A DNA stretch of 64,000 bases, taken from Bacteroidota bacterium (GTDB lineage: Bacteria > Bacteroidota > Bacteroidia > 2-12-FULL-35-15). Position numbers and translations under genes: made by a program. The notes beneath the pieces are model-generated. The model saw only the letters and a list, made by a program, of their open reading frames with translations. It was not told where the DNA came from and ran no database searches. The DNA lies in contig JAQZBR010000004.1 of assembly GCA_029237775.1 (NCBI GenBank), positions 496,001 through 560,000 on the forward strand, in the 5' to 3' direction. Each line of letters opens with the position of its first letter. Positions within the stretch are counted from its first letter, which is position 1. Positions 24,217 to 55,093 of the stretch are shown piece by piece.

Positions 24217-27200
24217 TTAAAAGCGAAGCCCGATCACAAGAATATCATCGATCTGTTCGATTCCTGATTTCCATGTTTCGATCTCATTATCGAGTTTAAC
24301 TTTTTGCTCCGTCATGGTCAGCTGCTGAATCGAAGCAAGTGTTTCCTTAAACCTTTTTGTGGAATATTTTTTTTCTCTTTCACCACCAAATTGATCAACA
24401 TAACCATCCGTAAACAAATAGAAAGTATCACCTTTCTGGATAGGAAAATTATGATTGTTGAAAATGTAATTATCTTCCATTTCCAGTCCACCAATCGACT
24501 GCTTATCAGCTTTGATCTCTTGAGCCATTCCGTTGTTGTAATGTAGCAAAGGCCTCTTTGCTCCGCTGTACTGCAACGTATTTGTAATTGTATCAATAAC
24601 CGCCAGAGCAAGATCCATCCCATCTTTTGACTCATAGCTGTCTCTGTCCTGCTTCAATGATTTCCTTACTCCCTGATGAAGTTTTTTAAGAACACTTGCT
24701 GCATCGTGAGAACCCTTTTTACTGATGATCTCATTTAAAAGTGAGCTGCCGATCATACTCATGAAAGCACCGGGAACACCATGCCCCGTGCAATCCACCG
24801 CTGCGATATAAATTTTATCATCCTTTTTATTGAACCAGTAAAAATCACCACTTACAACATCCCTTGGTTTAAACAAAACAAATGATTGCGGTAAAGCTTT
24901 CCGGATCTCCTCATCCAATGGAAGGATTGCATCCTGGATTTTCTTCGCATAGTTGATACTGTCCTTGATATCCTGAAACGCTACAGAAAGCTGATCATTC
25001 GCCTGCTTTAACTCTACCGTTCTTTCTGTCACCTTCTCTTCAAGCACCTTTTTTTCTTTCGCAAGCTGTGCAGTTCTGTAATTGATGAAGCTGTAAATAC
25101 TCAGTACGGCCAAAGCTATCACAAGCGTATAGAACCACCATGTTTTCCACCATGGAGGGGCAATAGAGAAAGAGAAAGAAATAGTCTCTTTGTTCCACAC
25201 ACCATTTGAATTCACTGCACGTACCCTGAACGTATAATTTTTACCCGGATCAATATTAGTGAAGACTGCTTCGGGCTTGTCTGTTAATGGCGACCATTCA
25301 TCATCCTGCCCTTCAAGTATAAAAGTATATTTTACATTATTGGTTGTAAAGGCCTGGAAATCGAAGGTCAGATTGTTATTTTTATGCGAAAGACGAAGGT
25401 TGATTGGAAGCCTATTCTTGTCAACTGAATCAGCATACATTTTCCAGTCAACATTCTGATATGCTAGGCGAATTCCCGTCAGGTGCAGTTTTGGGGGAGT
25501 GATATTCGGAAAATCGTACTTGCGGTCGTAACGGATCAATCCGGTGTTCGAGCCAAACCAGATCAATCCTGACTTGTCCATTAAAATTGCATTCTGATTT
25601 ATGTCAAGCCCTTTGAACCCCTCCTGCTCTCCATAGTATCTTACGTTTGCTAGACTCATATCACTCAGGAATGTCAATCTGTTAGCTCCTTTATCAGTTC
25701 CTACCCAAAGGCACTTATCAATGTTATCCCACTGCAGAACAGGAATGTAATCCGAACATAGGCCATCCTTTACACTATAATTTTTAAATTTTTTCCCATC
25801 AAATATGCAGATGCCTTTTTCACCTGTTCCGAAATAAAGGTTGCCTTTATCATCTTCACTGATAGACCAGACCGACTTATCTGCAAGACCTTCTTTGTTG
25901 TTATAGTTAACGAAACTTTTACCATCAAACTTAACAACTCCTTCATCTTTTGTACCGATCCATAAATTAGATTTTGAATCCTGAAAAATTGTAAGAATGT
26001 TATCCGAAATAAATCCGTTTTTTTTATTGTAAACAATGAGGTTGTCGTCTTTTATCCTGAACACACCTGAACCATAAGAGGCCACCCACTTAGTGCCGTT
26101 ATTGTCTTCAATTATCTTCAGTGCGGCAACCAGCTCAACCTTATCCTTTTTTTTGTAAGAGGTGATCAGGTGAAACTTTCCATTATCCTTGCCAAGCACA
26201 AATACTCCCTCCTGTGCACCAATCCACAACTGTCCATTCCGGGCTTCCGTTACTGAAAACACATTGATCTCACCGATTTCCGGAATCCCTGAGATTTCCC
26301 TGAAAGTATTCGTACGCTTTTCCAGCACAAAAATTCCCGCTCCCGGTGTTCCCACCACATAGTTTCCGTCAGCGGTGGAACATATTGTGCTTATATTGTT
26401 GCTTGGAAGTCCGTCCTTATCGGTGTAATTGACAAGTGATTCATTATTGAACATATTAACGCCACCGTTCTGCGTTCCTATCCATATATTTCCTTCATAA
26501 TCTTTATTCACGGACAGGACACCGTTTGTAGACAATCCCTGCTTTTCAGTAAAAAGGTGAAACTGCTTGTTCTCATATTTAAGAACACCATGTTCTGTTG
26601 CAAACCAAAGATTTCCTTTGTTATCTTCTGTTATACTTCCTATAAAATCGTTCTTTACGGTTTCAGGAAGCATGATATCTTCAAACCGTTTGTTCTTGTA
26701 TCTAAGCAAACCGTTTCCGCTTGTACCCCCGAACCAGATCACTCCCTTTGAATCTACATACGCAGAAAAGAAGGTTTTTTTATTTATGACATCTATCTTT
26801 TCATAACTGGTGACGCGTGAACCGTCATATTTCGCAATGCCATTCGATGCACCTAACCATAGATCATTCTTCGCATCTTCCACAATACAAAAAACATTGT
26901 TCGAAGGGAGTCCATCTTTTTTGGTGAACGCAGTAAAGGACTTTCCATCGTATTTGTTGATGCCGCCATCCTGAATAGCAAACCAGATGTTATTTTGCTT
27001 ATCTGCATAGATCCAGAAAACCACTCCTTCTGACAGGCCTTCTTTCTTGCTGAAATTTTTAAAGACCTGCCCGTCATACATGGAAACACCTTCTGACGTG
27101 GCGATCCATATATTACCATTTCTGTCTTCACTGATAAAGGTGACATCGTTAGCTATAAGTCCGTCCGTGCTTGTAAAGTTCCTGAATGTTTTACCGTTGA

Positions 27201-27396
27201 AACGACTCACTCCGCCACCTTGCGTTCCAAACCACATGTAACCGCGGCTGTCCTGAAAAATATTGTTAACGATGGAATTAGCGAGCCCGTTTTTTGCAGT
27301 ATAATTTTTGAAATTATATTGTTGCCCAAGTGTATTTATTACAGAGAGTAATAAGAATATGAGTAAAGAAAGATATTTACGGATACGTCTATTCAT
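24217..27396 (-). CDS. Two-component-regulator propeller protein with SpoIIE-type PP2C phosphatase
   Basis: A 1059-residue inner-membrane sensor phosphatase. After a signal peptide come about 14 short propeller blades (~25-655; repeats such as GNIWIATSEGV and DSRGYMWFGTQGGG) folding into two seven-bladed propellers. A Y_Y_Y Ig-like domain (~670-740) leads to a membrane span (~750-772, WWFYTLVIALAVLSI) and a coiled coil (~780-815). The SpoIIE domain (~818-1059) has metal-binding Asp in VVSGDFYWF and VDCTGHGVPGAF. Such proteins couple a periplasmic signal to dephosphorylation of a cytoplasmic partner, often an anti-sigma-factor antagonist. In the HTCS family the same sensor is joined to a kinase; here it is joined to a phosphatase. 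No partner lies nearby. Confidence 0.93.
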   Translation of the reverse strand: MNRRIRKYLSLLIFLLLSVINTLGQQYNFKNYTAKNGLANSIVNNIFQDSRGYMWFGTQGGGVSRFNGKTFRNFTSTDGLIANDVTFISEDRNGNIWIATSEGVSMYDGQVFKNFSKKEGLSEGVVFWIYADKQNNIWFAIQDGGINKYDGKSFTAFTKKDGLPSNNVFCIVEDAKNDLWLGASNGIAKYDGSRVTSYEKIDVINKKTFFSAYVDSKGVIWFGGTSGNGLLRYKNKRFEDIMLPETVKNDFIGSITEDNKGNLWFATEHGVLKYENKQFHLFTEKQGLSTNGVLSVNKDYEGNIWIGTQNGGVNMFNNESLVNYTDKDGLPSNNISTICSTADGNYVVGTPGAGIFVLEKRTNTFREISGIPEIGEINVFSVTEARNGQLWIGAQEGVFVLGKDNGKFHLITSYKKKDKVELVAALKIIEDNNGTKWVASYGSGVFRIKDDNLIVYNKKNGFISDNILTIFQDSKSNLWIGTKDEGVVKFDGKSFVNYNNKEGLADKSVWSISEDDKGNLYFGTGEKGICIFDGKKFKNYSVKDGLCSDYIPVLQWDNIDKCLWVGTDKGANRLTFLSDMSLANVRYYGEQEGFKGLDINQNAILMDKSGLIWFGSNTGLIRYDRKYDFPNITPPKLHLTGIRLAYQNVDWKMYADSVDKNRLPINLRLSHKNNNLTFDFQAFTTNNVKYTFILEGQDDEWSPLTDKPEAVFTNIDPGKNYTFRVRAVNSNGVWNKETISFSFSIAPPWWKTWWFYTLVIALAVLSIYSFINYRTAQLAKEKKVLEEKVTERTVELKQANDQLSVAFQDIKDSINYAKKIQDAILPLDEEIRKALPQSFVLFKPRDVVSGDFYWFNKKDDKIYIAAVDCTGHGVPGAFMSMIGSSLLNEIISKKGSHDAASVLKKLHQGVRKSLKQDRDSYESKDGMDLALAVIDTITNTLQYSGAKRPLLHYNNGMAQEIKADKQSIGGLEMEDNYIFNNHNFPIQKGDTFYLFTDGYVDQFGGEREKKYSTKRFKETLASIQQLTMTEQKVKLDNEIETWKSGIEQIDDILVIGLRF

Positions 27397-27461: not shown

Positions 27462-29699
27462 TTAATTGACCACTAATTTGCGGTGAATCTTTTGGTTGCC
27501 GCTTTCAATGATAATTGTGTAGACACCCTTTGTATAACCTTGTGTGCTGAACTCCACGTTGATTTTTTTTGCTGCAGATATTTCGAAACTATTTACATCG
27601 ATCACCTGGCCTAATACATTCACAATGCTCACTGAAACATCTCCCTTTAACCCTGTGAGCTCAAGGCGGAAAGCAGTTGTTGCAGGATTAGGATAAACAG
27701 AAACCTGTGGCATGACTTGGTTATTATCAATACCTATTGACAAAGCACTGTTTTTAATGTTTGATCGGGTTGTATTCACGGTTGCACGTGTAGGATCGCA
27801 GGAGATGGTCCAGTCTGTTTCCACCCTCCATCTAGCATTTGGAAATAATGAATAATTCGGATCATTCATTGGTGAGCTCGTATTAGCGCTTAGTATATTC
27901 CACATTCCTGTTCCCAAGTCATCACGAAGCAATAAATATTGTACCAGCTGCGGCACAGGGGTAGGCTGGCTTTCAACCGAATAGTCATTGAAAGTGAAAA
28001 CACCACCCGTTTGATTTACGAAGATTGATTTATGCCATGGACTCATCAAACTAGAATCACCTAAAACAGATTTTATCTGCAGCTTATATTTGTACGTTCC
28101 CTGATTAGGATTTCCTGTGTTTGGAAAGTAAGCCGTTCTTACAGTATCAACCAGCATGCTTAATGAATCGCGATGTACAGCGCCTATCTTTTTATACGTA
28201 TTAATAGTTGTTTCACGATAAACGATAAATGAATCTACACCCATGTAAGGAGTTTTATCCCAATAGATCTGATTATAATTGGAAAGACTGTCTACAGTAA
28301 CCATACAAATGTCCGGACGAACAAGGGAAGACATTTTTGCAACATATGCATCATAAGAAGCAACAGGTACGATTACGTGACTATCGAAGGACAATGATGA
28401 ACTACCTGTAGATCCGGCAATGATAACACTTCCTGCAGCGTCAATATCCATCGCGAAGCTGTAATCCTGAAAACTGCCACCCACCGATGTTGCCCATTCT
28501 GCAGTTCCCAGTTCATTATATTTTGCAAGGAAAATATCTCGGCCGGTGCCTGTTGTATTTAAAACGGCATTTCCGAAGTTCACCCCTGAGCTGCCAATAT
28601 CACCGCTTATGTAAACATTATTATTTCCATCGGTTGCAACGCCATAAGCTACGTCTGTTCCGCTCCCGCCAATGCATTTACCCCAAATCTCGGCTCCTGC
28701 AGGACTGTATTTTCCAAGAAAAATATCTGTTGTTCCTGTAGAGTTTAATGCAGTTCCGCCAAAATTAAATGATGCGCTGATATATCCGCAGATGTATACA
28801 TTGGAAGCAGTATCCGTAGTAACATTATATGTCACATCAGTTGTGGTGCTACCACAGGATTGAGCCCATAATACATTTCCTGCTGAACTGTATTTGGCAG
28901 TAAAGATCTGATAATTGGAGGCCGCAACATTATTGATAACTGTAGTACCAAAGGTCATGGCAGTACTGTAATATCCACCGGTAACAATAGCATTTCCTGC
29001 ACGATCTACAGTTATACCACCAGGATTATCACCACTCGGGCCTCCGGCAGTTTTCATCCATTGAACTGTTCCTGCAAGTGAGAGCTTCAACACAAACACA
29101 TCATTACCTCCGGCACTTGAAACCATTGCCGAACCTAAAGAAATTGAATTATTATAACTCCCTGTTATGTATACTGCACCTGAACCATCTGTGGCAATAC
29201 CAAATCCCTGATCAGATCCTGTATTTCCTAAACGATACTCATATTGAATCACACCGGCAGCATTGAATTTAGCAATGAATACATCTTCAGCACCTGCATT
29301 CACTAAAGTTGTCGATCCAAATGAAATGGACGGACTCTGGAAATTACCAGCGATGTAAACATTACCCGCATCATCAGTGGCTACTGCTTTTCCTAGATCG
29401 TAACCGGTTCCGCCTGCGCTTCTTGCCCAGAGAACATTTCCGCTTTTATCGTATTTAACGAGAAAGACGTCATTTTGCCCTACGTTGCTCAAAGTGAAAG
29501 AACCAAAGGTGATTGTGGAACTATAAAAATTTCCGGTCACAAATATGTTACCGTCCTTATCTGTTGCGACTGCTTTAGTATCTTCTGCAAGTGAACCTCC
29601 ACCACTTTTAACCCAGGTCCAACCAGGAACCTGTGCGTGCAAATCTGAGGCTGCAGAAATAATATACAATGCCAGTATTAAAAGTATGTTCTTTTTCAT
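27462..29699 (-). CDS. T9SS SBBP-repeat protein with conserved pre-CTD module
   Basis: A 745-residue secreted protein. I start it at the ATG at 29699 (MKKNILLILAL), because the frame further upstream offers only a GTG at 29714. Signal peptide, then about eight SBBP repeats (~25-455; DAAGSVIIAGS, GNIFVTGNFYSS) predicted to form a beta-propeller. Residues ~460-650 are the two-part fibronectin-like module shared with three neighbours (ICMVTVD ... YRETTINTYKKIGAV ... RATVNTTRSNIK). The T9SS sorting domain ends the chain (VSVYPNPATTAF ... KGVYTIIIESG). The propeller is of the same type as in the 1997-residue protein. Likely a cell-surface or matrix protein; no enzymatic motif. Confidence 0.9.
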   Translation of the reverse strand: MKKNILLILALYIISAASDLHAQVPGWTWVKSGGGSLAEDTKAVATDKDGNIFVTGNFYSSTITFGSFTLSNVGQNDVFLVKYDKSGNVLWARSAGGTGYDLGKAVATDDAGNVYIAGNFQSPSISFGSTTLVNAGAEDVFIAKFNAAGVIQYEYRLGNTGSDQGFGIATDGSGAVYITGSYNNSISLGSAMVSSAGGNDVFVLKLSLAGTVQWMKTAGGPSGDNPGGITVDRAGNAIVTGGYYSTAMTFGTTVINNVAASNYQIFTAKYSSAGNVLWAQSCGSTTTDVTYNVTTDTASNVYICGYISASFNFGGTALNSTGTTDIFLGKYSPAGAEIWGKCIGGSGTDVAYGVATDGNNNVYISGDIGSSGVNFGNAVLNTTGTGRDIFLAKYNELGTAEWATSVGGSFQDYSFAMDIDAAGSVIIAGSTGSSSLSFDSHVIVPVASYDAYVAKMSSLVRPDICMVTVDSLSNYNQIYWDKTPYMGVDSFIVYRETTINTYKKIGAVHRDSLSMLVDTVRTAYFPNTGNPNQGTYKYKLQIKSVLGDSSLMSPWHKSIFVNQTGGVFTFNDYSVESQPTPVPQLVQYLLLRDDLGTGMWNILSANTSSPMNDPNYSLFPNARWRVETDWTISCDPTRATVNTTRSNIKNSALSIGIDNNQVMPQVSVYPNPATTAFRLELTGLKGDVSVSIVNVLGQVIDVNSFEISAAKKINVEFSTQGYTKGVYTIIIESGNQKIHRKLVVN

Positions 29700-29721
29700 T
29701 TTCAGATTTTTCACAAAATTA

Positions 29722-29755
29722 TAAAAAAAAAGCCCGTTCTCGACAGAACGGGCTC
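29722..29755 (-). terminator. Terminator of the SprB-repeat gene at 29772
   Basis: Ten-bp stem AGCCCGTTCT/AGAACGGGCT with a 4-nt loop. On the minus strand it is followed by nine T, so it stops transcription before the next SBBP gene. Confidence 0.9.
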
Positions 29756-29771
29756 CATTTTCTTGCTTTTC

Positions 29772-30938
29772 TTACTTGATTACCAGCTTTTTATAGAATA
29801 TCTGACTTCCACTTTCAACGCTGATTATATATATACCCTTTCGATAAGATGAAATATTTAATTCTTTGGATATCACTGCACCCTGAACCTTTTCAACCAG
29901 CATAACCTGTCCGAGGATACTTTCTATTCTCAACTGAGCCGAAGTAATTTCCGGTGAAAGGCCAATAGTTACTGTTTCTTCAGCAGGATTCGGATACACC
30001 ACCATTGAGCCACTTTCATGCATATCAGACAAACCGGTAGTTAAGGCAGAGCCGCGTTTAATGTTTGAACGGGTCGTGTTTACGGTTGCACGTGTTGAAG
30101 TACAGGTAATGTTCCATGCAGTTTTCACACGCCAGTTTGCAATACTGCTGTGGTTTGCGAAACCGGGATCGATTGCGCTGAATGAAGTGGCTGCAACTGT
30201 TTGAACGGGCCCCCATACATCGACATTGGCTGTGTCACACAATAAGATATAGTTGTTGACCGGGTTAGGAAGGCCTTCAATTGTATATGGCAATGCCCAG
30301 GAAAACATCCCGAGTCCATCTTCAGTAATGTATATGGTGCTATGGTATGCACTGAGAGCTCCATAATTACCGCATGTGTCAAGGATCTGCAGCTTATATT
30401 TATATGAAGCTATGTTAGGATCCCCATTTGCGGGGCCAATGCTTCGAGCCGTATCTTTAAATTCACTTAATGAATCTGAGGATACAGCACCAATACGTGC
30501 ATATGTAAGAGGAGAAACTTCACGGTAAACAATGAAAGAATCAACATTGGTATAAAGCGTTTGATCCCAATACACGAAGTTATTTACAGAACCGCCATCG
30601 CATGTCACCATACAAATTGAAGGTGTAGGAACGGGAATTGCGGAGACAGTTACAGTTTCTGTATCGACACATCCGATCGCGTCCACAACAACTACAGAAT
30701 ATACACCGGGAAGTAAATTACTTGCTGTATTACCCAATTGATTCCCTGCCGTTGAAGACCATAAATATGTATAAGGTTGCACTCCACCATTGCCTGTTAC
30801 TGTTGCAGCGCCATTATTCGCGTTTGGACAGGAAGCATTTATAGTTGTTGATGAGAATGTAAATCCCGAGCATTGGGCTTTTAGGCTGTATCCGAAAAGG
30901 GTAAAAGAAAAAGTAAAAAGAAGTACGAGTTTTTTCAT
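29772..30938 (-). CDS. Small T9SS surface protein with one SprB repeat and the pre-CTD module
   Basis: A 388-residue secreted protein that works as a minimal version of its neighbours. It has a signal peptide, a single SprB repeat (~30-100; NGAATVTGNGGVQPYTYLW, GVYSVVVVDAIGC), the two-part module (~110-300; ICMVTCD, DSFIVYRE, RIGAVSSDSLSEF, CTSTRATVNTTRSNIK) and a T9SS sorting domain (VVYPNPAEETVTIGL ... GIYIISVES). SprB repeats occur in the Flavobacterium gliding adhesin SprB. Because it carries little else, it is the best protein here in which to study the module. Confidence 0.9.
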   Translation of the reverse strand: MKKLVLLFTFSFTLFGYSLKAQCSGFTFSSTTINASCPNANNGAATVTGNGGVQPYTYLWSSTAGNQLGNTASNLLPGVYSVVVVDAIGCVDTETVTVSAIPVPTPSICMVTCDGGSVNNFVYWDQTLYTNVDSFIVYREVSPLTYARIGAVSSDSLSEFKDTARSIGPANGDPNIASYKYKLQILDTCGNYGALSAYHSTIYITEDGLGMFSWALPYTIEGLPNPVNNYILLCDTANVDVWGPVQTVAATSFSAIDPGFANHSSIANWRVKTAWNITCTSTRATVNTTRSNIKRGSALTTGLSDMHESGSMVVYPNPAEETVTIGLSPEITSAQLRIESILGQVMLVEKVQGAVISKELNISSYRKGIYIISVESGSQIFYKKLVIK

Positions 30939-31225
30939 GATATAAGTTTATCCTTGCTAAGTTAATGAATTTAGTGGAATTAAAAAAGCGCGCCATACAG
31001 TTTGAACAGCTGAATCCCTCAAATAACAATGAGATCGAAGGAACAAAAACCTGCAAACGTGCCGACAGAAGAATACAAATTAAAGACGTTTATTGTTCTA
31101 TGGCCGATAAAAAAAATTCGGATATATTCCGGCAGCTTTTCATTCTGTCGCGTCACAAACTGAGAATTATTACCGCAGCCAGTGCTTACTATATTAAGTG
31201 CGTCCTTTGAACATGAGTACAAATT
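30939..31225. other. Gap before the 29772 gene; contains one doubtful 81-codon frame
   Basis: This is the promoter region of the minus-strand gene that ends at 30938. I find no well-formed TTTG/TAnnTTTG pair. A plus-strand frame (30965-31210, beginning MNLVELKKRA) has a fairly protein-like composition but no RBS, no recognised family and runs into the opposing terminator, so I do not call it a gene. Confidence 0.4.
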
Positions 31226-31253
31226 AAAAAGCCCGAGGACATTCCCCGGGCTT
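31226..31253 (-). terminator. Terminator of the PKD/SprB giant gene
   Basis: AGCCCG/CGGGCT with inner GG/CC pairing, followed on the minus strand by TTTTTAATTTG. It lies 19 bp after the stop codon at 31272. Confidence 0.85.
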
Positions 31254-31271
31254 CTGAATCTAAATAAGTGA

Positions 31272-34200
31272 TTAGTTAATTATCAGCTTTTTAAATGCCT
31301 GCCCCTGCTTGTTCTTTATAACAACAGTATAAATTCCTTTTGCAAAGGAGGAGGTATTGACGTTATTTATGGCATCGGAGGACGAGGAAACAATAACCTT
31401 GTTATATACAACCTGTCCTACCGAATTCATGATCTGTAAGTGAATGTCACTGCCAGAGACTGGAAACTTGATCATTACATTGTCACTTGCAGGATTCGGG
31501 TAAACAGCCGCTGTTGAAAGATCCACAGCAGGGATACCTATTGCCAGTGACTGTTTGATATTTGAGCGCGTGGTATTCACTGTTGCGCGTGTCGACTCAC
31601 AGGTGATTCCCCAAAGAGTTTCAACATACCAGCTTCCATTCGGATAACTTCCATAGTTCGGATCCACAAGCGTATTCTGTGTACCTGCAGTGATACCTAC
31701 CTGATTCCATGAACCACTGTTGTTATCATCCCGCATAAGACGGTAATTATTAACCGGATTAGCGTTATTCTCGATAGTATATAAAGGATTCCAGGTGAAT
31801 TGACCGGAACCGTTATCAACTATATAAAGCGTGTTATGGTAATTGCTTTTAACACTTTCATTACCGCAATTATCCAACACACTGATCTTGTAGCGTTTTG
31901 TGGTCATGTTCGGATTTGCACCCAAATCATGATATTCACTGAGGCTATCATAAGAAACAGCACCAATCCGTGTGTAAACATTGGTAACATCTTCCCTGTA
32001 AATAAAGAAGCTGTCGATGTTGCTTACAGCAGGCTTTTCCCAATAAATAATATTGTGCGTTGAAAGAGGATCAACAGTGACCATACAGATCTCCTGCGGA
32101 TTTGTTGTAGATGAGATTGTAGTTGATGCAGTTGCGGTACAACCTTTATTATCTGTAACTGTTACCGTATAAGAACCGGTGTTAAGTGCGGTGGCTGTTT
32201 GGGTCGTTTGTCCGCCCGGGGTCCACATGTATGTAAAGCTCGTGTTCCCACCTGTAGAAGTTGCAATTGCTGTCCCATCAACATTACCGCAGGTAACCCC
32301 TGAACTCATTACTGAAGCAGTCAGAAGTTCCGGTTGAGAAATGGTGTAGCTTCTGAAACTCATACAACCGTGGGCATCATTTACAAATACCAGATAATTT
32401 CCCGGTGTAAGGTTGTTCACATCCTGATGATTTGTTTGAGGAGGGGGAACATTCCATGTATACAAATACGGAGATGTCCCACCTGTAACTGTAATATTTA
32501 CTGCACCGTTAGATCCGCCATAACAGCTTACATTGCTCGTAACAGCAGTAATGTTAGGTGCATTTGAGTTACTCAGATCAACTATACCTTCACTTGTACA
32601 ACCATTTACATCTGTTACTACGACAGAATACGTTCCTGCAGGTAAACCAGAGGCAGTCTGTGTAGTCTGGTCTGCAGCGTTACTATCCCAAAGATAAGTG
32701 TATGGCCCGTTTCCACCGTTTGCAGTAACAGTTGCTTGTCCGTCAAAATTTCCGCAAGTTGGTGAAACCATAACCGAAGTAGTAACATTGATGGCAGAAG
32801 ACTGAGTAACATTAACACTTAATGCAGCGTGACAACCACTGTTATCGGTTACGGTTACCGAATATGTTCCTGCAGCAAGATCTGAGAGATTCTGAGTAGT
32901 TGCTGCATTCGACCAAAGATAAGTGTAAGGTGCCGTGCCTCCGGTAACATTAATATTTATAGCACCTGTAGAGCCACCATAACAATTTACATTCGTAACA
33001 GTATTCAATGAAAGCGTTGCTCCGCCATTCTCACTTATTGCTGCAGTGGCTGTTGAAGAGCAACCAGTAGCAACATCCGTAACAGTAACCGAATAGGTTC
33101 CGCTGGAAAGGCCCGTAGCTGTTGCATTTGTTATACCTGTTGACCACAAATAATTGTAGGTTCCGGAACCTCCACTGCTTATACTCACCGTTGCTGATCC
33201 TGTTGCAGCTCCACATGCAGTTGTTGTTGTATTTACAGAAGTAATCATTGCTGAAGGATCATTAATAGAAACCGCCAGAGTGGATGAGCAACCAACGGCA
33301 TCGGTTACGGTGGCATAATAAAGTCCTGCTGACAATCCCGTAGCGTTTGCTGTGGCCTGGCCTGAAGGGTCATTCCAGGCATAGATGTAAGGTGCTTGTC
33401 CGCTGGAAACAGAAATTGTTGCCGATCCGTTCGATCCTCCAACACAGGTTGGAGATGTTGAAGAGGAAAGTGAAACTGCTGGTCCACCCGTTCCATTCAC
33501 ACTCAGCGAACGTGAAAAGATTGCCGTATTTCCGCAGCCGTTTGTCACCTCCACACTCACCACATAAACTCCTGCAGAAGCAAAAGTGTGTGATACGGTT
33601 GAAGAGCTTGTAGTCAAAGTACTTCCATCCCCAAAATTCCAGTCGTATGTTTCTCCTCCGAATGCAAGAAAATCGATGGAAGCACATGTGGTAAACGGAG
33701 GTGGAGAAGTGGTCATATCTCCGCTCACAGGAATACCCCCACCAATATGGATCGTCATTGTATCTGTTACAGTGTTACCGCAACTGTTTGTAAGGTTAAG
33801 AGTTATAAGGTAATTACCGGCCGCAGAAAATGCATGACGAATGATCGTTACCGGGAAGGCACCATCATTTCCGTAAACCACAAGCTGATCCACTGCTGTC
33901 CCGCTATTACCGTCACCAAAGTTAAATGAGTTGGATGTTGCTGACCCTTCAAAATAGAAAACGATCGCATCGCCCGCGCAACCGGCAGTATTGACACCAC
34001 CGCTGCTGTTATGATCCCCGCCTGCAAAACCCCATATCCTGTCGCCTTCAGTGTTGTAAAGAGAAGGGATTGCGCTATTGGAAATCACAACCGTTGAAGA
34101 TATTGTAAGCGTTGACCCGCAACCATTCACCGCGTTAACGGTTACGTTATAAGTGCCTGTTGCTGTATACGAATGACTTGTTCCCGAGCCATTTGTTGTT

Positions 34201-36203
34201 GTGGCAGGCGAACCATCCCCGAAATTCCAGGTATAACCGTAGGTTGACTGTCCGCCATGCAGTACAAAGAAAACCTCATCTCCCTGACATGATGGATTCT
34301 GAATCCCTTCAACTGTTAATTCAGGATTAACAGGGGAAGAATTAGTCACCTGCACCAGTCCTGTGACTGTTGTCGTTAATCCACAGCCATTTGTTATCAC
34401 GCATGTTACAACATACGATCCGGTAGCAGAATATGCATGCTGAATTCCTTCGCCTGTGGAAGTTGTAGAGCTTCCATCACCGAAATTCCATGCATAGGAC
34501 GCATAGCCGCCCTGGTTAACACGCATTTCCACAAGATCATTCGGACATGTAGTTACCGGATCTATCTGAAGTTGCAGCCAGTTAGGGAAAGAGCCTGTGT
34601 TATTAACCACAATAGTTCCGCTGAGAGTTGTATCATTACCGCAATTATTCACAATAGTAAGAGAAACGTTATAAGTTCCGGTAGCGGTATAAGTATGCGA
34701 GGTATGTGGACTGGTAAGTGCTGAGCTGTTACCATCTCCGAATGTCCAGGTATAGCTTGCGTATCCCGAAGGAGCATTGAAGCCAACAGCATCCCCCTGG
34801 CAAGCCGGATTAGGTCCGACATTGATCTGGTTCCCGTCAAAATTAGGAAAACCAACATTATTCAATATCTGAATTGTTTTTGTGAGAGTAGTATCATTTC
34901 CGCAGCCGTTGGTAATAACAACAAAAGCATTATAATTTCCCACCGGTCCGTACTGATGGTACTGATAATGATTCGAAGTGGTAACAACAGGTGAACCATC
35001 TCCGAAATGCCACTCATAAGAAACGTTCCCATCCGGTGCATCAAATGAGACAAAGGAGTTAGGACAAGCCGGAGTTGTTGCATTCAACTGAAAATTCTGA
35101 GCCGGAAAAGGGGCTGTGTTACTGATAACAATATTTTTTGTAAGAGTTGTATCGTTTCCGCATGCGCTGGTAATTGTGACTGAAGCGTTGTATGAACCCG
35201 CTGTAGTATATAAGTGAGAATTGTAACTGGTTGTTGTATTCAGAACAGGCGTTCCGTCACCAAAATTCCATGTATAGGAATTGTAACCCTGAGGAGAATT
35301 AAAATTCAATGTAGAGTTTGGACAAGCAGGGGAATTTGCCTGCAGGCTAAAACCCGGATAATTTGGAAAAGCAGGAGAGCTTACGATATTAACGGTCGCC
35401 ACCGCAGAACCGGTTTTACCACAACCGTTGGTAACTGTAACTGTTGGTGTAAATACTCCAAGGCCTGAAAATGTATGTGACGGGTTTTGAAGAGTTGAAC
35501 TATTCGATCCGGAAGCAGGATCATTAAAATTCCATACATAAGATGAATAACCACCAACGCCCAGCATTACAGGCATTGCAGGACAAGAAGGATTTGGATT
35601 TGCATACGCGCTCGGCTGGGGATAAACATTTGTACCAATAACTATTGTTTTAGTAACTGTTTGCATTCCGCAGGACTGGGTATTCGCAGTCATCGTAACC
35701 GTATAGATACCGTTCGATGAAAACGCATGCTGTGTACAGAATTCATTTGTAGTATTATTAGCTCCCGAAGCGGGATCACCAAAGTTCCAGGAAACTGAAT
35801 TGAAATTTCCATTCGGACAAACGTTCACCATATCCCCAATACATGCGGAATCCGCCATATTGATATTTGCACCCATAATCGCGATAGTACCATTGGAATT
35901 GCCTACAGAACCCTGATACACTCCTCCACTGCTGTAAATATCAACCATGATATTGTAAAATCCTGAATAGGTATACACATGACTTACGCTGGAAGGCATC
36001 GTATCAACAAGCACAGGAGATCCATCATTGAAATTCCAATGGAATTCATATGCGGTAGGACTGCCGGATGTAACGTTAAACGTAATCGTTGCGGGAGCAC
36101 ACGCATTATTAGTGTTTGAGCTAATATTTACCTGAGCGTAAATAGGTAAACTCGTTATAGCGCTCAGCAGAAAGAACGCCTTCAGAAGTAATTTCTTTTT
36201 CAT
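31272..36203 (-). CDS. Giant T9SS adhesin-like protein: ten PKD and six SprB repeats plus pre-CTD module
   Basis: A 1643-residue secreted protein with a signal peptide ending near PIYAQ. Ten PKD domains (~25-910) are each marked by a W/N-FGDG-like motif (WNFNDGSPV, WNFGDPASG, WTFGDGNSS, WNFGDGSTL); two carry the variant FGDPASG or FNDPASG. Six SprB repeats (~916-1360) follow, each starting near a Cys and ending with a TYSVTVTD-like strand. The shared two-part module (~1370-1551) ends in CESTRATVNTTRSNIK, and the T9SS sorting domain (~1560-1643, AAVYPNPASDNV) closes the protein. SprB-type repeats and the size suggest a surface adhesin, possibly for gliding or attachment. No catalytic domain. 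Confidence 0.92.
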   Translation of the reverse strand: MKKKLLLKAFFLLSAITSLPIYAQVNISSNTNNACAPATITFNVTSGSPTAYEFHWNFNDGSPVLVDTMPSSVSHVYTYSGFYNIMVDIYSSGGVYQGSVGNSNGTIAIMGANINMADSACIGDMVNVCPNGNFNSVSWNFGDPASGANNTTNEFCTQHAFSSNGIYTVTMTANTQSCGMQTVTKTIVIGTNVYPQPSAYANPNPSCPAMPVMLGVGGYSSYVWNFNDPASGSNSSTLQNPSHTFSGLGVFTPTVTVTNGCGKTGSAVATVNIVSSPAFPNYPGFSLQANSPACPNSTLNFNSPQGYNSYTWNFGDGTPVLNTTTSYNSHLYTTAGSYNASVTITSACGNDTTLTKNIVISNTAPFPAQNFQLNATTPACPNSFVSFDAPDGNVSYEWHFGDGSPVVTTSNHYQYHQYGPVGNYNAFVVITNGCGNDTTLTKTIQILNNVGFPNFDGNQINVGPNPACQGDAVGFNAPSGYASYTWTFGDGNSSALTSPHTSHTYTATGTYNVSLTIVNNCGNDTTLSGTIVVNNTGSFPNWLQLQIDPVTTCPNDLVEMRVNQGGYASYAWNFGDGSSTTSTGEGIQHAYSATGSYVVTCVITNGCGLTTTVTGLVQVTNSSPVNPELTVEGIQNPSCQGDEVFFVLHGGQSTYGYTWNFGDGSPATTTNGSGTSHSYTATGTYNVTVNAVNGCGSTLTISSTVVISNSAIPSLYNTEGDRIWGFAGGDHNSSGGVNTAGCAGDAIVFYFEGSATSNSFNFGDGNSGTAVDQLVVYGNDGAFPVTIIRHAFSAAGNYLITLNLTNSCGNTVTDTMTIHIGGGIPVSGDMTTSPPPFTTCASIDFLAFGGETYDWNFGDGSTLTTSSSTVSHTFASAGVYVVSVEVTNGCGNTAIFSRSLSVNGTGGPAVSLSSSTSPTCVGGSNGSATISVSSGQAPYIYAWNDPSGQATANATGLSAGLYYATVTDAVGCSSTLAVSINDPSAMITSVNTTTTACGAATGSATVSISSGGSGTYNYLWSTGITNATATGLSSGTYSVTVTDVATGCSSTATAAISENGGATLSLNTVTNVNCYGGSTGAININVTGGTAPYTYLWSNAATTQNLSDLAAGTYSVTVTDNSGCHAALSVNVTQSSAINVTTSVMVSPTCGNFDGQATVTANGGNGPYTYLWDSNAADQTTQTASGLPAGTYSVVVTDVNGCTSEGIVDLSNSNAPNITAVTSNVSCYGGSNGAVNITVTGGTSPYLYTWNVPPPQTNHQDVNNLTPGNYLVFVNDAHGCMSFRSYTISQPELLTASVMSSGVTCGNVDGTAIATSTGGNTSFTYMWTPGGQTTQTATALNTGSYTVTVTDNKGCTATASTTISSTTNPQEICMVTVDPLSTHNIIYWEKPAVSNIDSFFIYREDVTNVYTRIGAVSYDSLSEYHDLGANPNMTTKRYKISVLDNCGNESVKSNYHNTLYIVDNGSGQFTWNPLYTIENNANPVNNYRLMRDDNNSGSWNQVGITAGTQNTLVDPNYGSYPNGSWYVETLWGITCESTRATVNTTRSNIKQSLAIGIPAVDLSTAAVYPNPASDNVMIKFPVSGSDIHLQIMNSVGQVVYNKVIVSSSSDAINNVNTSSFAKGIYTVVIKNKQGQAFKKLIIN

Positions 36204-36333
36204 TTATGTGTTTTTTATTTAATAGCTAAAATATAAAAAAAGTCGAATTGGCTTCGTTCATGTTGATAATTTAAAGGGTCAATGCACCGCTATTTCAGAA
36301 AGACAATAAATCATTTTTAATTACCTTTAAAAA

Positions 36334-36780
36334 ATGGAACTTACTATCTTTTCTGATGAGCACTTTATGCGTGAAGCTCTTAAAGAGGCAAAGAGAGCAT
36401 TTGATGCGGATGAAGTTCCCGTTGGTGCAGTTGTCGTTGTCAACAATACTGTAATTGCGAGGGCACACAATCTCACGGAAAGGCTGAATGACGTGACTGC
36501 TCATGCTGAAATGCAGGCTATCACATCTGCCTGTAATTTCCTGAATGGCAAATATCTTAACGAATGTACTTTGTATGTTACGCTTGAACCATGCGTAATG
36601 TGTGCCGGAGCGCTTGCATGGGCACAGACTGCCAGAATCGTTTATGGTGCAAGCGACACCAAACGAGGGTATAACTTAATTGGCAACAAGATCCTTCATC
36701 CCAGAACATCCGTAAAACACGGAGTATTAGCCGAAGAATGTGCGCAGCTTGTTAAAACATTCTTTCAGCAAAAACGCTGA
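36334..36780 (+). CDS. tadA: tRNA adenosine(34) deaminase
   Basis: A 148-residue zinc deaminase that converts A34 to inosine in the anticodon of tRNA-Arg(ACG). Zinc is bound by His57 and the PCVMC cysteines Cys87 and Cys90; Glu59 of the HAE motif is the proton shuttle. The remaining length and the GGxxNL-like RGYNLIGN segment fit TadA rather than cytidine deaminases. It is an isolated plus-strand gene between two large minus-strand genes. The hairpin overlapping its stop codon has its T-run on the other strand. Confidence 0.93.
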   Translation: MELTIFSDEHFMREALKEAKRAFDADEVPVGAVVVVNNTVIARAHNLTERLNDVTAHAEMQAITSACNFLNGKYLNECTLYVTLEPCVMCAGALAWAQTARIVYGASDTKRGYNLIGNKILHPRTSVKHGVLAEECAQLVKTFFQQKR

Positions 36781-36797
36781 TCATTTCTGATCAGCGT
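36769..36797 (-). terminator. Terminator of the M16 peptidase gene, overlapping the tadA stop
   Basis: Perfect 10-bp stem ACGCTGATCA/TGATCAGCGT with a 4-nt loop. On the minus strand it is followed by TTTTTGC; on the plus strand there is no T-run. The stem includes the last codons of tadA. Confidence 0.75.
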
Positions 36798-36821
36798 CTG
36801 CTTGAATTTCTATCTTCAAAA

Positions 36822-39764
36822 TTATTTTTCAGGTCTCTCCTCCGTCTTTTTTCCGCGAACCCTTTCCATTGATTTGGATGGCACTTCTTTCTTTTCTTCC
36901 GCGTTCAGTAATTTAGGAGTAACAGGAGCTAAAGCAACCGGATTTCCATCTGTATCCAGCTCCACCACTTCATATCCCAATTTCACGAGGCCATCATAGA
37001 TCTTTGCCTTATCACCAACAACCAATATAATCATATTGTTATATGCAAGACGATTCTTTGCGATGGCATTGATCTCCTCAGCAGTAATATTTTTCAGGAT
37101 CGTATTTTGCTTTTCAACAAAGTCTTTCGGAAGATTGTAATCAAGGATCCTTCCCATAAAACCTGCCTTTTGCTGAGGCGTTTCATATTTCAATGCTTCG
37201 CCTTGCCCGATCGAATTCTTAGTGAACATCAACTCTTCATTTGTGATCCCGTTATCAGCAAATTTCTTTATCTCTTTTAAAAACTCCACAACAGAGCTGT
37301 CTGTTGCGTTTCCTCTCACGCCCGCGCTTGCAGTATAAGGACCTGCAAACTTGGTTCCCGAGTAACCTGAACGTGCACCGTAAGTGTAACCATGCTGCTC
37401 ACGAAGATTAAGATTGATACGGCTGTTAAACGCACCACCAAGCGTATAATTCGCGAGTGTAGCTTTGTAATAATCTCCGGTTGCATCATATGGAAGGCTC
37501 ATGTATCCCATTCTTATCTCAGACTGAGGAGCTTTCTCTTTATTAACAAGATAAATACGCGTTTTGTCAATCCCCGGCAATGCAGGTTCGCGTTTCCTCA
37601 AAATTTTATTTCCCTCCCACTTTTTCAGGAAAGATAGTTTCGCAAGCGCTGCATCCTTCTCAATATCTCCAACAACCACTGCAGAAGCAACGTGAGGTGT
37701 AATGTTCTCAGCGTAAAACTTCTTTACATCATCTAACGTGATTCCTTCAACAGTCTCTTTTGTGCCCAGTGAAGAAATTCCCATGTTATGATCGGCACCA
37801 TAAAGCAAATGTGAGAACACATTATTGGCAATAGTAGTCGCCTGTGTTGATTGATTTGCTATTGATTCAAGACGCTGCTTCTTTACTCTTTCAAAATCGC
37901 CCTGATCAAACCGAGGATGCAATAATATTTCCTGCGCAATTGCAAGTGTTGAATCAAGGTTCTTGGTAAGTGACGAAACACTCATCACGATATTCTCAGA
38001 ACCGCTGTAAACATTTACCGAACTCCCAAGCCTGTCAAGCTTCTGTGCAATCTCTTCAGCAGTATATTTAGCTGTCCCTTCATTCATCAGTGCTGCAGTA
38101 ACACCCGAAATACCTGCCTTTTTTATGTCCTCAAAGCGGTGACCCGACTCGATGCTCAACTGAATAGTTACACTTGGGATCTCTGTCGTTTTTGCACCAA
38201 TAATCTTAAGGTCATTGTCAAACTTTTCAGTCCAGTAATCAGGTGGAACAATAACAGGATTACCTGAAGCAAGCGGACGCTTTGTGCGGTCAAAATTATC
38301 CTTCGCTTTATTGTAAACAAGGCTCTTGTATTCCTCACCTTCAACAGCGGTAGTATTTCTTACAGGAGGAGTATAATTGTCTGCTTTGGCAACAAGTGTA
38401 GATTTTCCTTTTGGATAAACACTTAGCTTAACAGCATATTTATTCTTGATGTAAGTGTTGTACACACGCAACACATCTTCTTTCGTTACGTTCTGGTAAC
38501 GTTCAACTTCCTTTACGATATAATTTGGATTTCCGGTGAATGTCTGATAAGAAGCGAGTGTTGCTCCTTTTCCCTGAACACTTGCCAGAGAATTTATCAG
38601 CTGCGCCTCAACACTTGCCTTAAATTTCTTTATATCATCTTCAGTAACACCATTTTTTTCAAAATCTTTGAAAGACACATTCGCAAGTGAATCCATCTGC
38701 GCAAGTGTCTTATCCTGAGTTGTGCGGATCTGAATATTGAATGTACCCGCAAGTTCTTGCGTACCATGGTAGATACCGGCAGACTGTGCCATCTGTGACT
38801 TCACAAAATTTTTGTAGAACACAGAAGACTTGCTCCCGCCAAGAATGTCAGCAAGAACATCAAGAGCAGCTTCATCCTTGTGATATGAAGGCACTGTTGG
38901 AAATACAATTGACAATTGCGGCAAGCGAATGTTATCCTCGTAAGAGATGTAACGGTCTTTGTCAAGAATAACAGGCTTAACAGTCTGCGCTTTTACTTCA
39001 GCGCCCTTTGGGATAGAACCGAAATACTTTTCAGCATATTTTAAAACATCTGCAACCTTTACATCCCCGGCTACAGTTAATGTTGCATTGTTGGGTCCGT
39101 ACCAGCGAAGAAAGAATTTCTTCAGGTCATTCACATCAACTCTGTTAAGATCTTCTATGTAGCCGATGGTCAACCAGGAATATGGATGACTTGGAGGATA
39201 TAAAGCAGCATTTATGCGCTCCCCCGCAATACCGTATGGACGATTATCATAATTCTGCCCGCGTTCATTTTTAACAGTTTCGCGTTGCACCTCAAATTTC
39301 CTTTGAGTTACAGAATCAAGCAGGAATCCCATCCTGTCGCTTTCAAGCCATAAAGCAGTCTCCAACTGATTAGATGGCATCACCTCAAAATAATTTGTTC
39401 TGTCGGTATTTGTAGTTCCGTTCAACGTTCCACCCGCTTCAGTTACAATTTTAAAATGTTGTTCGTCACCAACATGCTCCGACCCCTGAAACATCATGTG
39501 CTCAAAGAAATGTGCAAAACCTGAACGTCCTTCCTGCTCACGGGCAGAACCAACATGATAGGTAACATCTGTATAAACTACCGGGTCGGAATGATCTTCA
39601 TGAATGATCACTGTAAGCCCGTTAGGCAGCTGATATTTTTCATAAGGTATGACTAGCTCGGAACCTTTACGGGTAACCTTTTCAATTAGCTTTGGCTGTG
39701 CATAAGCCGAAGCTGTACATACAGCAACAAGCAATGTGGATTTTAAGATCGATCTGATTTGCAT
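36822..39764 (-). CDS. M16 family zinc peptidase, two-domain
   Basis: A 980-residue secreted or periplasmic pitrilysin-type metallopeptidase. A signal peptide (LLVAVCTASAYAQ) precedes the first M16 module with the inverted zinc motif HFFEH (His85, Glu88, His89). A catalytically silent first-half partner follows, then a second M16 unit (~500-940) that lacks HxxEH, as is usual for the non-catalytic half that closes the chamber. A Pro/Lys/Glu-rich tail ends the protein. It probably degrades peptides in the periplasm. It is preceded, 5 bp upstream, by a small membrane protein gene, so the two are cotranscribed. Confidence 0.93.
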   Translation of the reverse strand: MQIRSILKSTLLVAVCTASAYAQPKLIEKVTRKGSELVIPYEKYQLPNGLTVIIHEDHSDPVVYTDVTYHVGSAREQEGRSGFAHFFEHMMFQGSEHVGDEQHFKIVTEAGGTLNGTTNTDRTNYFEVMPSNQLETALWLESDRMGFLLDSVTQRKFEVQRETVKNERGQNYDNRPYGIAGERINAALYPPSHPYSWLTIGYIEDLNRVDVNDLKKFFLRWYGPNNATLTVAGDVKVADVLKYAEKYFGSIPKGAEVKAQTVKPVILDKDRYISYEDNIRLPQLSIVFPTVPSYHKDEAALDVLADILGGSKSSVFYKNFVKSQMAQSAGIYHGTQELAGTFNIQIRTTQDKTLAQMDSLANVSFKDFEKNGVTEDDIKKFKASVEAQLINSLASVQGKGATLASYQTFTGNPNYIVKEVERYQNVTKEDVLRVYNTYIKNKYAVKLSVYPKGKSTLVAKADNYTPPVRNTTAVEGEEYKSLVYNKAKDNFDRTKRPLASGNPVIVPPDYWTEKFDNDLKIIGAKTTEIPSVTIQLSIESGHRFEDIKKAGISGVTAALMNEGTAKYTAEEIAQKLDRLGSSVNVYSGSENIVMSVSSLTKNLDSTLAIAQEILLHPRFDQGDFERVKKQRLESIANQSTQATTIANNVFSHLLYGADHNMGISSLGTKETVEGITLDDVKKFYAENITPHVASAVVVGDIEKDAALAKLSFLKKWEGNKILRKREPALPGIDKTRIYLVNKEKAPQSEIRMGYMSLPYDATGDYYKATLANYTLGGAFNSRINLNLREQHGYTYGARSGYSGTKFAGPYTASAGVRGNATDSSVVEFLKEIKKFADNGITNEELMFTKNSIGQGEALKYETPQQKAGFMGRILDYNLPKDFVEKQNTILKNITAEEINAIAKNRLAYNNMIILVVGDKAKIYDGLVKLGYEVVELDTDGNPVALAPVTPKLLNAEEKKEVPSKSMERVRGKKTEERPEK

Positions 39765-39769
39765 TTTAT

Positions 39770-39994
39770 TCAGTTTAAATTATTTTTGGTAATAAGCACT
39801 TTTTCTTTTGATGTTTTTGATTGTCGAAAATATTCAATAAAAATCGCGTAAGCTAAAGAAGCACCAAGGAGCGTAAAGGCATAAGAACCTGTTCGTTTCG
39901 GCCCAAGATCTTCATTGAAAAATGAAATCCAGTAGCTCAATGCAATAACAGAAAAAAGGAATTTTATCCAGGTTGCCAGAATGCGTCTCAGCAT
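39770..39994 (-). CDS. Small two-span membrane protein
   Basis: A 74-residue protein with two hydrophobic segments (about 8-24, ATWIKFLFSVIALSYWI, and 36-54, GSYAFTLLGASLAYAIFI) and a basic C-terminal tail. I recognise no family. It lies 5 bp before the M16 peptidase ATG on the same strand, so translation coupling is likely and it may help anchor or regulate the peptidase, but that is inference. Hydrophobicity profile and tight spacing support it as a real gene. Confidence 0.65.
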   Translation of the reverse strand: MLRRILATWIKFLFSVIALSYWISFFNEDLGPKRTGSYAFTLLGASLAYAIFIEYFRQSKTSKEKVLITKNNLN

Positions 39995-40053
39995 GATATT
40001 CTAATTAAAACAAATATAATCAATTGCAACGCTTTAAACAAAGCATTATTGAT

Positions 40054-40084
40054 CAAAAAAAGAGCGGTCTTAAACCGCTCTTTC
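40054..40084 (-). terminator. Terminator of the 2261-residue surface protein gene
   Basis: AGAGCGGT/ACCGCTCT stem with a 5-nt loop, followed by seven T on the minus strand. The stop codon is at 40087. Confidence 0.9.
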
Positions 40085-40086
40085 TA

Positions 40087-43000
40087 TTATTGAATTACCA
40101 ATCGCTTGAATGTGCTTCCTGATTCAGTAGTTATATTAACTATGTACACTCCTTTGTTCAGTGCGGAGACATTCAATCGGTGCGACAAGGTTACATTTCC
40201 GCTATTTTCTTCAGACAGCTCTTCATTAACAACTAACTGCCCCAGTGCATCAAACAGCTGCAATGTGTATCGTTTGAATCCTGAAGGGTATTCTATTGTA
40301 ACAAACTCATCAGCAGGATTCGGATAAACATTGATCTGAGTATTCAAGATCGCTTGTTCAGCAACATCTAAAGCAACCATTGCTACGTTTTTGATGTTCG
40401 AACGCGTTGTATTCACTGTGGCCCTTGTTGGTGTACAGCTGACAGACCAGTTCGATTCAAGGAGATACCGAACATTCGATGATATCGGAGGTGTAAGATC
40501 CGTGTAAACGGTATTAGAACCCGGAACTGAGTCAATTGCAACGAAAGTTCCGTTACCAAGCGTATCTCGCAGAACACGGTAAAAGTCAACTGTTGCTCCT
40601 TCGTAAGGAACCCAGTTAAGATTTACAACACCACCAACTCCCTGATTTGCCTGAAGGAAGATCGTACGGTGATGATTACTTAAAACACTTTCATTTCCAC
40701 ATGTATCGATCACAGAGATCTTGTAACGGAAATTAGTTGTATTCGGATTAGCGACAGGCAGGTAAACAGAGTCTACGTATGAACTAAGAGAATCATAATG
40801 CACTGCACCGATCTGAACAAATGAGCTCAGCACCTCACGATAAATTCGGAAGCTGTCAATATCAGAAGCAACAGGCTTTTCCCAGGTTACAGTATTGAAA
40901 GAAGATGCATTATTTACCGAGACCATACATAATTCCTGTGCTGAAACTGCTGTAACATTCACACCAAAAGCAGATGAACTGCCTGTACCGCAAGCATTCT
41001 CTCCATATACGCTGATATTACCTGACACAGCCGCATTGCTGAAGCTTACAGTAATTGTATTTGTACTATCACCTGCTACGATACTTGCGCCTGAAGGTAA
41101 AGACCAAACATAATATGAAGCGTTGAACACCGGAGCAACACTATACATCACAGAGTTCGAAACTGGACAAACAGAAACTGTGTTGCTTCCTGAAATGTTT
41201 CCGGCCATGTCGGGAAGTGTATTTACATTAACAGCAAGCGTTGATGAGCTTCCGGCACCACAGCTGTTTACGGGAACTACGGTAACATTCCCCGAAAGCG
41301 CTCCTGAAGAATAATCAACTGTGATGCTGTTTGTTCCTGCACCAGAAACTATAGATGCACCCGATGGTACACTCCAATTATAAGATGTCGCATTGTTAAC
41401 CAATGGAATAGAATACGTAACACCTGAAGTAGAAGGACAAGTTGTGATCGCAGATTGTCCGATGATAGCATCGGCTGCATCCGGATAAGGATTAACAGTA
41501 AAATTTAAATTTGACGTTGTGCCCAATCCGCATATATTCACTCCTGCAACACTGATCACACCGCCTGTTAACCCCGGAGTGAAATTGACCGTTATTGAGT
41601 TTGTGTTAGTTGCTCCGATGATATTCACACCTCCAGGAACAGACCATAAATACGAAGTGGCATTATTTATTGAAGGAACCGAATATGTTACACCTGTAGC
41701 ACCATCACAAACTGAAGCTGCGCCTAAGATACTTCCCGCAGCAGCAGGTAGCGGACTTATAGTTACCGGATAATTTGCTGATACCGTTCCGGAACCACAT
41801 GAATTATTTCCGCTTACACTGATGTTACCGGAGATTGCAGTATTGTTGTAATCAACAGTAATGTTATTCGTGTTCACTCCTGAGATGAGTGAAGCACCGG
41901 TTGGCAAGCTCCATGAATATCCTGTTGCACCGGTTATTACGGGAACTGTATATGCAACAGCAGTTTGTCCCTGACAAACACTTGTAGATCCGGAAACGTT
42001 TCCGGCAGGATTAGGAACATCGGAGATCGTAACAAAACCTGCTTTGATCTCGAAATCTGTAGCGGCAAGGTTATCTGTTACCTGCAATGAAATTGTTTTC
42101 GCTCCGGCAGTGGAGTAAGTCACGGTATGAGGCCCCTGTCCGGTTGCTGATGGTGGAAACGCACCTGCACCAAAATTCCAGCTCCACCCTGTAATAGTTG
42201 CTCCGGCAGCAATGGAGGCATCTGTAAATGTTACTACAGGTGTTCCGTTCAGACACTGAGATGTTGTATTAGCTGTAAAGTCAGCGGTGGTAGGACAATT
42301 GTTCCTCTTTACACGAACGTTGTTCCCAGAGCTTGCACATGCACCATTACTGATCGTCCAGCGGAAAGTTGCTGAATCGCCAATTGCAAAACCTGTAACG
42401 GTGCTTGTTGGATTTGAAGGAGAAGTAATGATCAATGAAGGGTTTGTTGTTGTGATCATTGTCCACAAACCTGTTCCGTAAACAGGGGTATTTCCGGCAA
42501 GAGTGGCGACACCCGGACAAATCACCTGATTAGTTCCGGCAACAGAAGTGCTTGGTGTACGATCAACGGTTACAACGAAATTTCTCACGATCGTATTATT
42601 GTTGGCTGCACCATCATTAATAGTAACGGTAATTGTTGAAGTACCGGAAACACCTGCAACAGGTGTGTAAGAAAGACTACCGGTTGCATTAGGACTTAAA
42701 TAAGTGATCGAAGGTGTTGGGATAAGCCCGGTGTTACTTGAACTTACAGAGATCGTAAGTGTCTGCGATTCATTAGCAGCACCAGTTCCGATTCCTGTAA
42801 GATTTATTATCTGCAATCCTGTATTCTGGCAAATAGAAGAAGGATTTGAAATGGCAGTAAGTGTAGGTGCATTGTTCAGCGTTGAAACAGAAAGACTGTT
42901 TCCTGTTGATGCAGGCATGTAGTTGTATTGACAGTTTTGAACACCGTTGTATTCATACACACTGAAAATATAGTTAGTGTTTGATAGAAGTCCTGTAACG

Positions 43001-54953: not shown

Positions 54954-55093
54954 TTAAAAAAGTATTTTATCAAAGATAACAATTGCGTTTTATTTTCATT
55001 TACGGCCTTAGAAAAAAGCAGTGGGCATGACATCCTTAAGTCTTGATTAATCCTCTTTTTTTGCATATATTTGAAATAACAAAAAGACAACGA

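Follow-up and report, generated by a model that had tools for sequence, protein, structure and literature searches.

The sortase PorU cleaves cargo of the type IX secretion system (T9SS) within the flexible linker that precedes the tail, and the cargo is attached to a lipopolysaccharide anchor; PT/GI is the preferred T9SS cleavage site in Prevotella intermedia (both from excerpts of PMC11969387). In the gingipain RgpB, a beta-sandwich of the immunoglobulin superfamily (IgSF) lies directly before the type A sorting domain and is followed by the short disordered linker where the tail is cut; its authors propose that this domain may act as a spacer or insulator (excerpts of PMC4804311). Here we analyzed a 64,000-nucleotide stretch of a Bacteroidota genome (GCA_029237775.1, contig JAQZBR010000004.1, positions 496,001 to 560,000; hereafter the window), in which four neighbouring genes encode proteins with a type A T9SS sorting domain and, immediately ahead of it, a block of 179-187 residues. 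The block represents an unnamed family of fibronectin type III (FN3)-like domain pairs that is real, selected and tied to type A T9SS tails, and its fold is ordinary. We propose, with a probability of about 0.6, that its two packed FN3-like domains form the membrane-proximal foot of large, repeat-rich T9SS surface proteins.

The four proteins are named here by the lower window coordinate of their genes, all of which lie on the minus strand. Pfam assigned unrelated N-terminal parts to them: SBBP in 27462, a single SprB in the 388-residue protein 29772, PKD plus SprB in 31272, and fn3, Laminin_G, FG-GAP and PKD-like domains in 40087. On inspection of the translations, their N-termini resemble signal peptides. 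The block of the SBBP protein (186 residues, 27753-28310) is followed by a linker and the sorting domain (27465-27752). Block and linker plus sorting domain occupy 30057-30617 (187 residues) and 29775-30056 in the 388-residue protein, 31554-32090 (179 residues) and 31275-31553 in the PKD+SprB protein, and 40390-40932 (181 residues) and 40090-40389 in the FN3/LamG/FG-GAP protein; the PKD+SprB copy supplies the reference numbering used below (C2...C164...S176-N177). At the C-termini, PF18962 scored 45.4, 50.2, 58.1 and 54.8 bits, in the same order (cut-off 27), and TIGR04183 scored 39.8-49.4 bits (cut-off 23; 41.4 bits in the SBBP protein). Pfam and a segment scan thus bear out the preliminary description of this stretch, which had reported a shared module of ~180-190 residues before the T9SS domain in four proteins with unrelated N-termini. 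Of the landmarks that it listed, DSFxxYRE and IGAVxxDSLS hold in all four copies; YxLxRD does not, reading YILLCD in 29772 and YRVLRD in 40087.

To place the block beyond the window, we searched other genomes. A single-sequence search gave matches in 42 of 59 genomes, the own genome counted, and with a profile, at a limit of E 1e-5, matches came from 207 of the 295 Bacteroidia genomes searched, a figure that takes in weaker FN3-pair proteins, for example those with a type B tail; the best match was 1e-25 or better in about 80 of the 295, as counted by eye. A non-exhaustive scan of bacterial and archaeal genomes at large, with two peptide patterns and the best 80 of 155 kept, yielded 77 loci, 76 titled Bacteroidota and one titled 'uncultured bacterium'. 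Viral contigs scanned with one block gave one pattern match and no relative. From all fetched loci we took 259 distinct full-length copies, and the stop codon was seen for 232 of these. A sorting domain lay downstream in 230 of the 232, within 40 residues of the block in 212. The two exceptions, L193 and L206, stop 24 and 5 residues past the end of the profile match and have no full sorting domain; they are apparently truncated genes or assembly errors. Related copies are therefore present in many Bacteroidia and stand nearly always before a T9SS domain. Upstream the block has no single partner, and the passenger parts frequently consist of repeats (SprB 37, SBBP 14, PKD_4 11 and FG-GAP 6 among 100 of 160 upstream pieces). 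In seven copies of an earlier, smaller set (L032, L088, L093, L096, L100, L102 and L104; families f8, f23 and f24) an extra stretch separates block and sorting domain, and in several of them it resembles by eye an SprB-type repeat.

When seven blocks were scanned alone, neither NCBIfam nor PF00041 matched at E up to 1, and no Pfam family came close to its cut-off. Among 105 block-plus-tail sequences, the tail family matched all 105 and fn3_2 matched three at E up to 0.1. The statement that no named family covers the block at cut-off therefore holds for the seven copies scanned alone, and in a literature search no listed title or abstract opening described such a block, its invariant cysteines or its strict place, while a search with a sequence fragment returned two unrelated papers. 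AlphaFold2, run on the family alignment, predicted two beta-sandwiches, with a predicted local distance difference test score (pLDDT) of 95.2 and a predicted template modelling score (pTM) of 0.89 for the SBBP-protein block alone, and a pLDDT of 93.5 and a pTM of 0.69 for the PKD+SprB block with its sorting domain. Because the pTM is high, the two domains are in a fixed mutual arrangement in the model, and the block is predicted with high confidence to be two rigidly packed FN3-like domains. The two-part module of the preliminary description accordingly survives as two halves, which are predicted to be FN3-like and no new fold.

Structural comparisons gave the same picture for the first domain, which is the part covered by the FN3 match in VIA. 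Its neighbours there were nearly all FN3 chains (3mpc, Z 9.5 over 88 residues, root mean square deviation (rmsd) 2.8; 1cfb, Z 9.5 over 80 residues, rmsd 2.2), and the top row was the pectate lyase 4u49 (Z 9.8 over 82 residues, rmsd 2.0). The top Foldseek chains were mainly tandem FN3 and cytokine-receptor proteins, and none of the PDB tandems listed fitted the whole pair (template modelling (TM) score by query length at most 0.36 among the 50 matches listed). Against viral structures, Foldseek returned mostly phage or viral proteins, several of them FN3-annotated, with a best whole-block TM score of 0.42. Direct coupling analysis of the 259 sequences recovered FN3 strand pairs, together with interdomain contacts of N86, T63 and T64 with Q138 and T140; the couplings also suggested a hairpin, 167-173/176-182, possibly an indel artefact. 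A PDB sequence search with the block-plus-tail profile gave 13 matches with the best stretch in the sorting-domain part, gingipain entries included, and the match that extended furthest toward the block started at position 171.

The block closes with a segment of 13 residues, TRATVNTTRSNIK, which is identical in all four window copies (27753-27791, 30057-30095, 31554-31592 and 40390-40428, all on the minus strand). A six-frame pattern scan of the window detected it at these four sites and nowhere else, and specifically not in the 1997-residue protein, which had been said to lack the block. The segment is thus one residue longer than the 12 identical residues first noticed, and lies within a few bases of the positions first given. 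Two more full copies elsewhere in the genome have the same 13 residues, which makes six in all; a seventh (C3:242132-242656) is divergent and has a different end. Pairwise identity of the six full blocks is 37-55%. When they are aligned, all 13 columns of the segment are invariant, the second-longest invariant run has 4 columns, and in the remainder of the alignment the invariant fraction is 0.16, so that the identity of the segment cannot be put down to chance.

Among the four window copies, the third codon position varies for 11 of the 13 residues of the segment. The nucleotide identity of the four segments is 0.81, compared with 0.737 (sd 0.025) under random synonymous choice, and 0.75% of simulations were as high; some shared codon bias or ancestry therefore remains. 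Conservation at the DNA level, as at a recombination site, was set aside given the variation at third positions, although codon identity is slightly above random. In a maximum-likelihood tree of 105 blocks, the seven own-genome copies fall in seven separate places (7 label changes needed), and every window copy groups with sequences from other species of the genus; the tree thus shows the own-genome copies to be old paralogues. Furthermore, two other species of the genus have proteins of similar length in close proximity (G028:C4 at 7367, 15989, 17324 and 19646; G032:C16 at 339187, 340876 and 350156), so the cluster itself is old. Since third positions vary and the copies sit in separate places of the tree beside copies of other species, the identity of the segment is best explained by selection on the protein sequence and not by recent copying. 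The preliminary description had reached the same view, and it stands with the small excess of codon identity noted above.

Only close relatives are identical over the full 12-13 residues; in the family as a whole, what remains invariant of the segment is Ser-Asn. Among the 259 copies, Cys164, Asp55 and Tyr67 occur without exception, Cys2 is found in 258 (the other has a gap), Ser176 and Asn177 in 257 (the other two have gaps) and W17 in 256. The rest of the segment varies, N172 being Asn in 65 of 105 copies and R175 being Arg in 76 of 105 (alignment A1), and the 12-mer first described is thus the local form of a shorter family signature. W17 and Y67 are at the usual sites of the FN3 core Trp and Tyr. 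The conserved DSL of block positions 48-51 (DSLS) resembles the Bacteroidota O-glycosylation motif, D-S/T-hydrophobic. An isopeptide crosslink was considered and rejected, there being no Lys among the positions conserved at 95% or more.

The place of Ser-Asn in the fold can be judged from related FN3 pairs. A 1111-residue protein of the same genome (G000:C1:302920-304560; L250-L252) has a type B (CHU_C) tail and three FN3 pairs, which the block profile matches weakly over block positions 5-162, 21-177 and 16-167. One of these weak matches is overlapped by a Pfam fn3 match of 30.3 bits, over the cut-off, and this overlap forms a bridge from the block to FN3; many genomes of the genus also have a matching protein of about this length. 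In three type B cargo proteins (from the own genome, G031 and G010), the last FN3 pair ends in NSTSNI, NSISNI and NSLSNI, respectively, ~10 residues before the tail. Of 36 ordinary fn3 domains in these genomes, 10 likewise show Ser-Asn near the last strand by pattern, with some of these matches probably falling in loops. Because SxSNI ends type B pairs too and Ser-Asn recurs in ordinary fn3 domains, we read Ser-Asn as opening the final strand of the second FN3 domain and C-x-P-T-R-x-x-x-N-T-T as a long loop that leads into this strand. In the last pair of the type B proteins, the counterpart of the Cys164 loop contains no cysteine, and for this reason Cys164 looks particular to the block. Couplings were not used as proof of this placement: a run with 171 sequences paired 165-175 with strand 41-51, and the run with 259 sequences kept S51-T167 and its neighbours, which are near-invariant columns.

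We also assessed the linker that separates the block from the sorting domain. The pattern [TSINV]G[IV] is present in the linker of 68 of 105 copies, and in 64 of these it falls 6-10 residues after N177. Of 29 other cargo proteins of the own genome, 16 have it no more than 24 residues ahead of the sorting-domain PNP, and 20 have a relaxed form there; [ST]xSN was found in only two of 29 other sorting-domain proteins of this genome. The linker signature is therefore a trait of type A cargo and Ser-Asn a trait of the FN3 pair. Since a sortase-type linker follows the block in about two thirds of copies, the block is predicted to remain on the mature protein.

These observations provide the basis for a model of the foot. 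The C-terminal sorting domain would carry the protein across the outer membrane via the T9SS. PorU would then cleave within the short linker; in many cases the site would be of the xG[IV] type, ~6-10 residues past the invariant Ser-Asn. The fresh C-terminus would be linked to a lipopolysaccharide anchor. The FN3 pair would be kept on the mature protein as a spacer between the anchor and the passenger repeats. Within the pair, SNI would open the last strand of the second domain, with the C-x-P-T-R loop enlarged ahead of it, and a Cys2-Cys164 disulfide would fasten this loop to the point where the first domain begins. Such a pairing is suggested by the copies with fewer cysteines: all 34 that lack Cys75 keep Cys2 and Cys164, 33 of them also lack Cys120, and 26 of these 33 have no other cysteine. 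It is conceivable, and we regard it as doubtful, that the enlarged loop reaches back along the first domain and is locked there by the disulfide, a 'stapled foot' that would not unravel from its C-terminus when the protein is pulled away from its lipopolysaccharide anchor. If true, the staple would give Bacteroidota a counterpart of the crosslinks that bear load in Gram-positive surface proteins, employed again and again under many different passengers.

Several results weigh against the foot and its proposed construction. Most copies have three cysteines (C2, C75 and C164), so a C2-C75 pair is possible, and by the usual FN3 topology the Cys2 and Cys164 sites would be at different ends of the first domain. 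The coupling S51-T167, which would lay the loop onto the first domain, is weak and rests on near-invariant columns. Proof of FN3 membership at the sequence level is also weak. The closest relevant Pfam match on the seven isolated blocks was fn3_4 at E 0.097 in one block, with no fn3 above cut-off; comparison by hhalign with seven local fn3 domains was not significant (P 0.14 for domain 1 and 0.035 for domain 2); and the two domains match one another weakly (P 0.0039, hhalign probability 3.5). Furthermore, the gap to the sorting domain exceeds 40 residues in 18 of 230 copies. The strict xG[IV] linker is absent in 37 of 105 copies and present in two of the four window copies (27462 and 31272), 29772 having TGL and 40087 neither. 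A literature search found no experiment on any block protein.

An alternative account is that the block is a mere folding unit. It would belong to a lineage of FN3 pairs in which the fold itself demands the invariant residues, would do no more than fill space, and would stay beside the sorting domain because C-terminal cassettes are copied together. The presumed core positions W17 and Y67 fit this view, as do the Ser-Asn of ordinary fn3 domains and the SxSNI that ends three FN3 pairs before type B tails; the latter finding raises this account slightly and lowers that of a docking site. Distances among blocks and among sorting domains are likewise correlated (Mantel r 0.48; highest of 999 permutations 0.10), a result that shared species history alone could explain. 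However, C2, C164 and S176-N177 are invariant over 257-259 copies, a degree not reached by ordinary fn3 domains of the same genomes, and 13 identical residues are retained within one genome by blocks that are 37-55% identical overall. We therefore consider a mere folding unit possible and rather unlikely. Less probable still is a ligand-binding or adhesion module, whose conserved loop would bind a partner on the same or another cell. FN3 pairs are common binding modules, and they resemble cytokine-receptor and adhesin modules; the cytokine-receptor likeness here amounts to a shared fold only, and the block is at the anchor end and not at the tip.

The preliminary description had offered a stalk or a docking site for export, and with the stalk retained as the most likely role, we judge it very improbable that the block is an extended sorting signal on which the translocon, a PorV-like shuttle or the sortase docks: the block does precede a type A domain in nearly every copy (230/232) and type B cargo is described as needing regions larger than its tail (excerpt of PMC10202324), but only seven of 150 scored sorting-domain matches of this genome carry the block (312 candidates), so it is not generally needed for export, [ST]xSN is rare in other sorting-domain proteins (2/29), SxSNI also precedes type B tails, which take another route (same excerpt), and 18 of 230 copies lie more than 40 residues away from their sorting domain. 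The set of cargo in this 4.1-Mb genome is large, with at least 150 type A sorting-domain matches (150 of the 312 candidates scored). Within the window, a 542-residue protein (55043-56671, plus strand) has a FlgD_ig match and a sorting-domain match of 26.7 bits (Pfam cut-off 27), and is likely a further T9SS cargo protein, without the segment. The gene adjoining the cluster at 24217-27396 (minus strand) codes for regulator-propeller repeats, a Y_Y_Y domain and a SpoIIE phosphatase in one protein.

As the membrane-proximal foot that we favour, the block would mark the part of these proteins predicted to be nearest the cell surface, and it allows a test for a special load-bearing foot on T9SS-anchored proteins. 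It is a domain worth naming for many environmental Bacteroidia surface proteins that are otherwise described by their repeats and sorting tail only. The case also illustrates that a long identical peptide beside a sorting domain need not belong to the sorting signal.

Compared with known systems, the block shares with fibronectin type III (PF00041) its predicted fold, strand pairing and tandem arrangement. It differs in having no Pfam match at cut-off, in its invariant Cys2 and Cys164 and in the long loop before the last strand, and its packed pair is unlike PDB tandems (whole-block TM score at most 0.36 among the 50 matches listed). In each of the four window proteins the block is directly followed by the type A sorting domain (PF18962/TIGR04183), which is itself the signal for export, whereas the block sits upstream of the predicted cleavage site. 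FN3 pairs of type B (CHU_C) cargo, such as those of the 1111-residue protein, are weakly related, and three proteins have SxSNI at the close of their last pair, a short way ahead of the tail; they differ in occurring as three pairs per protein, in their type B tail and in having no cysteine at the equivalent of the Cys164 loop in the last pair. The nearest described counterpart, by analogy of place, is the RgpB IgSF domain, which in the excerpts of PMC4804311 is a single Ig-like domain, whereas here an FN3 pair stands under many unrelated repeat proteins.

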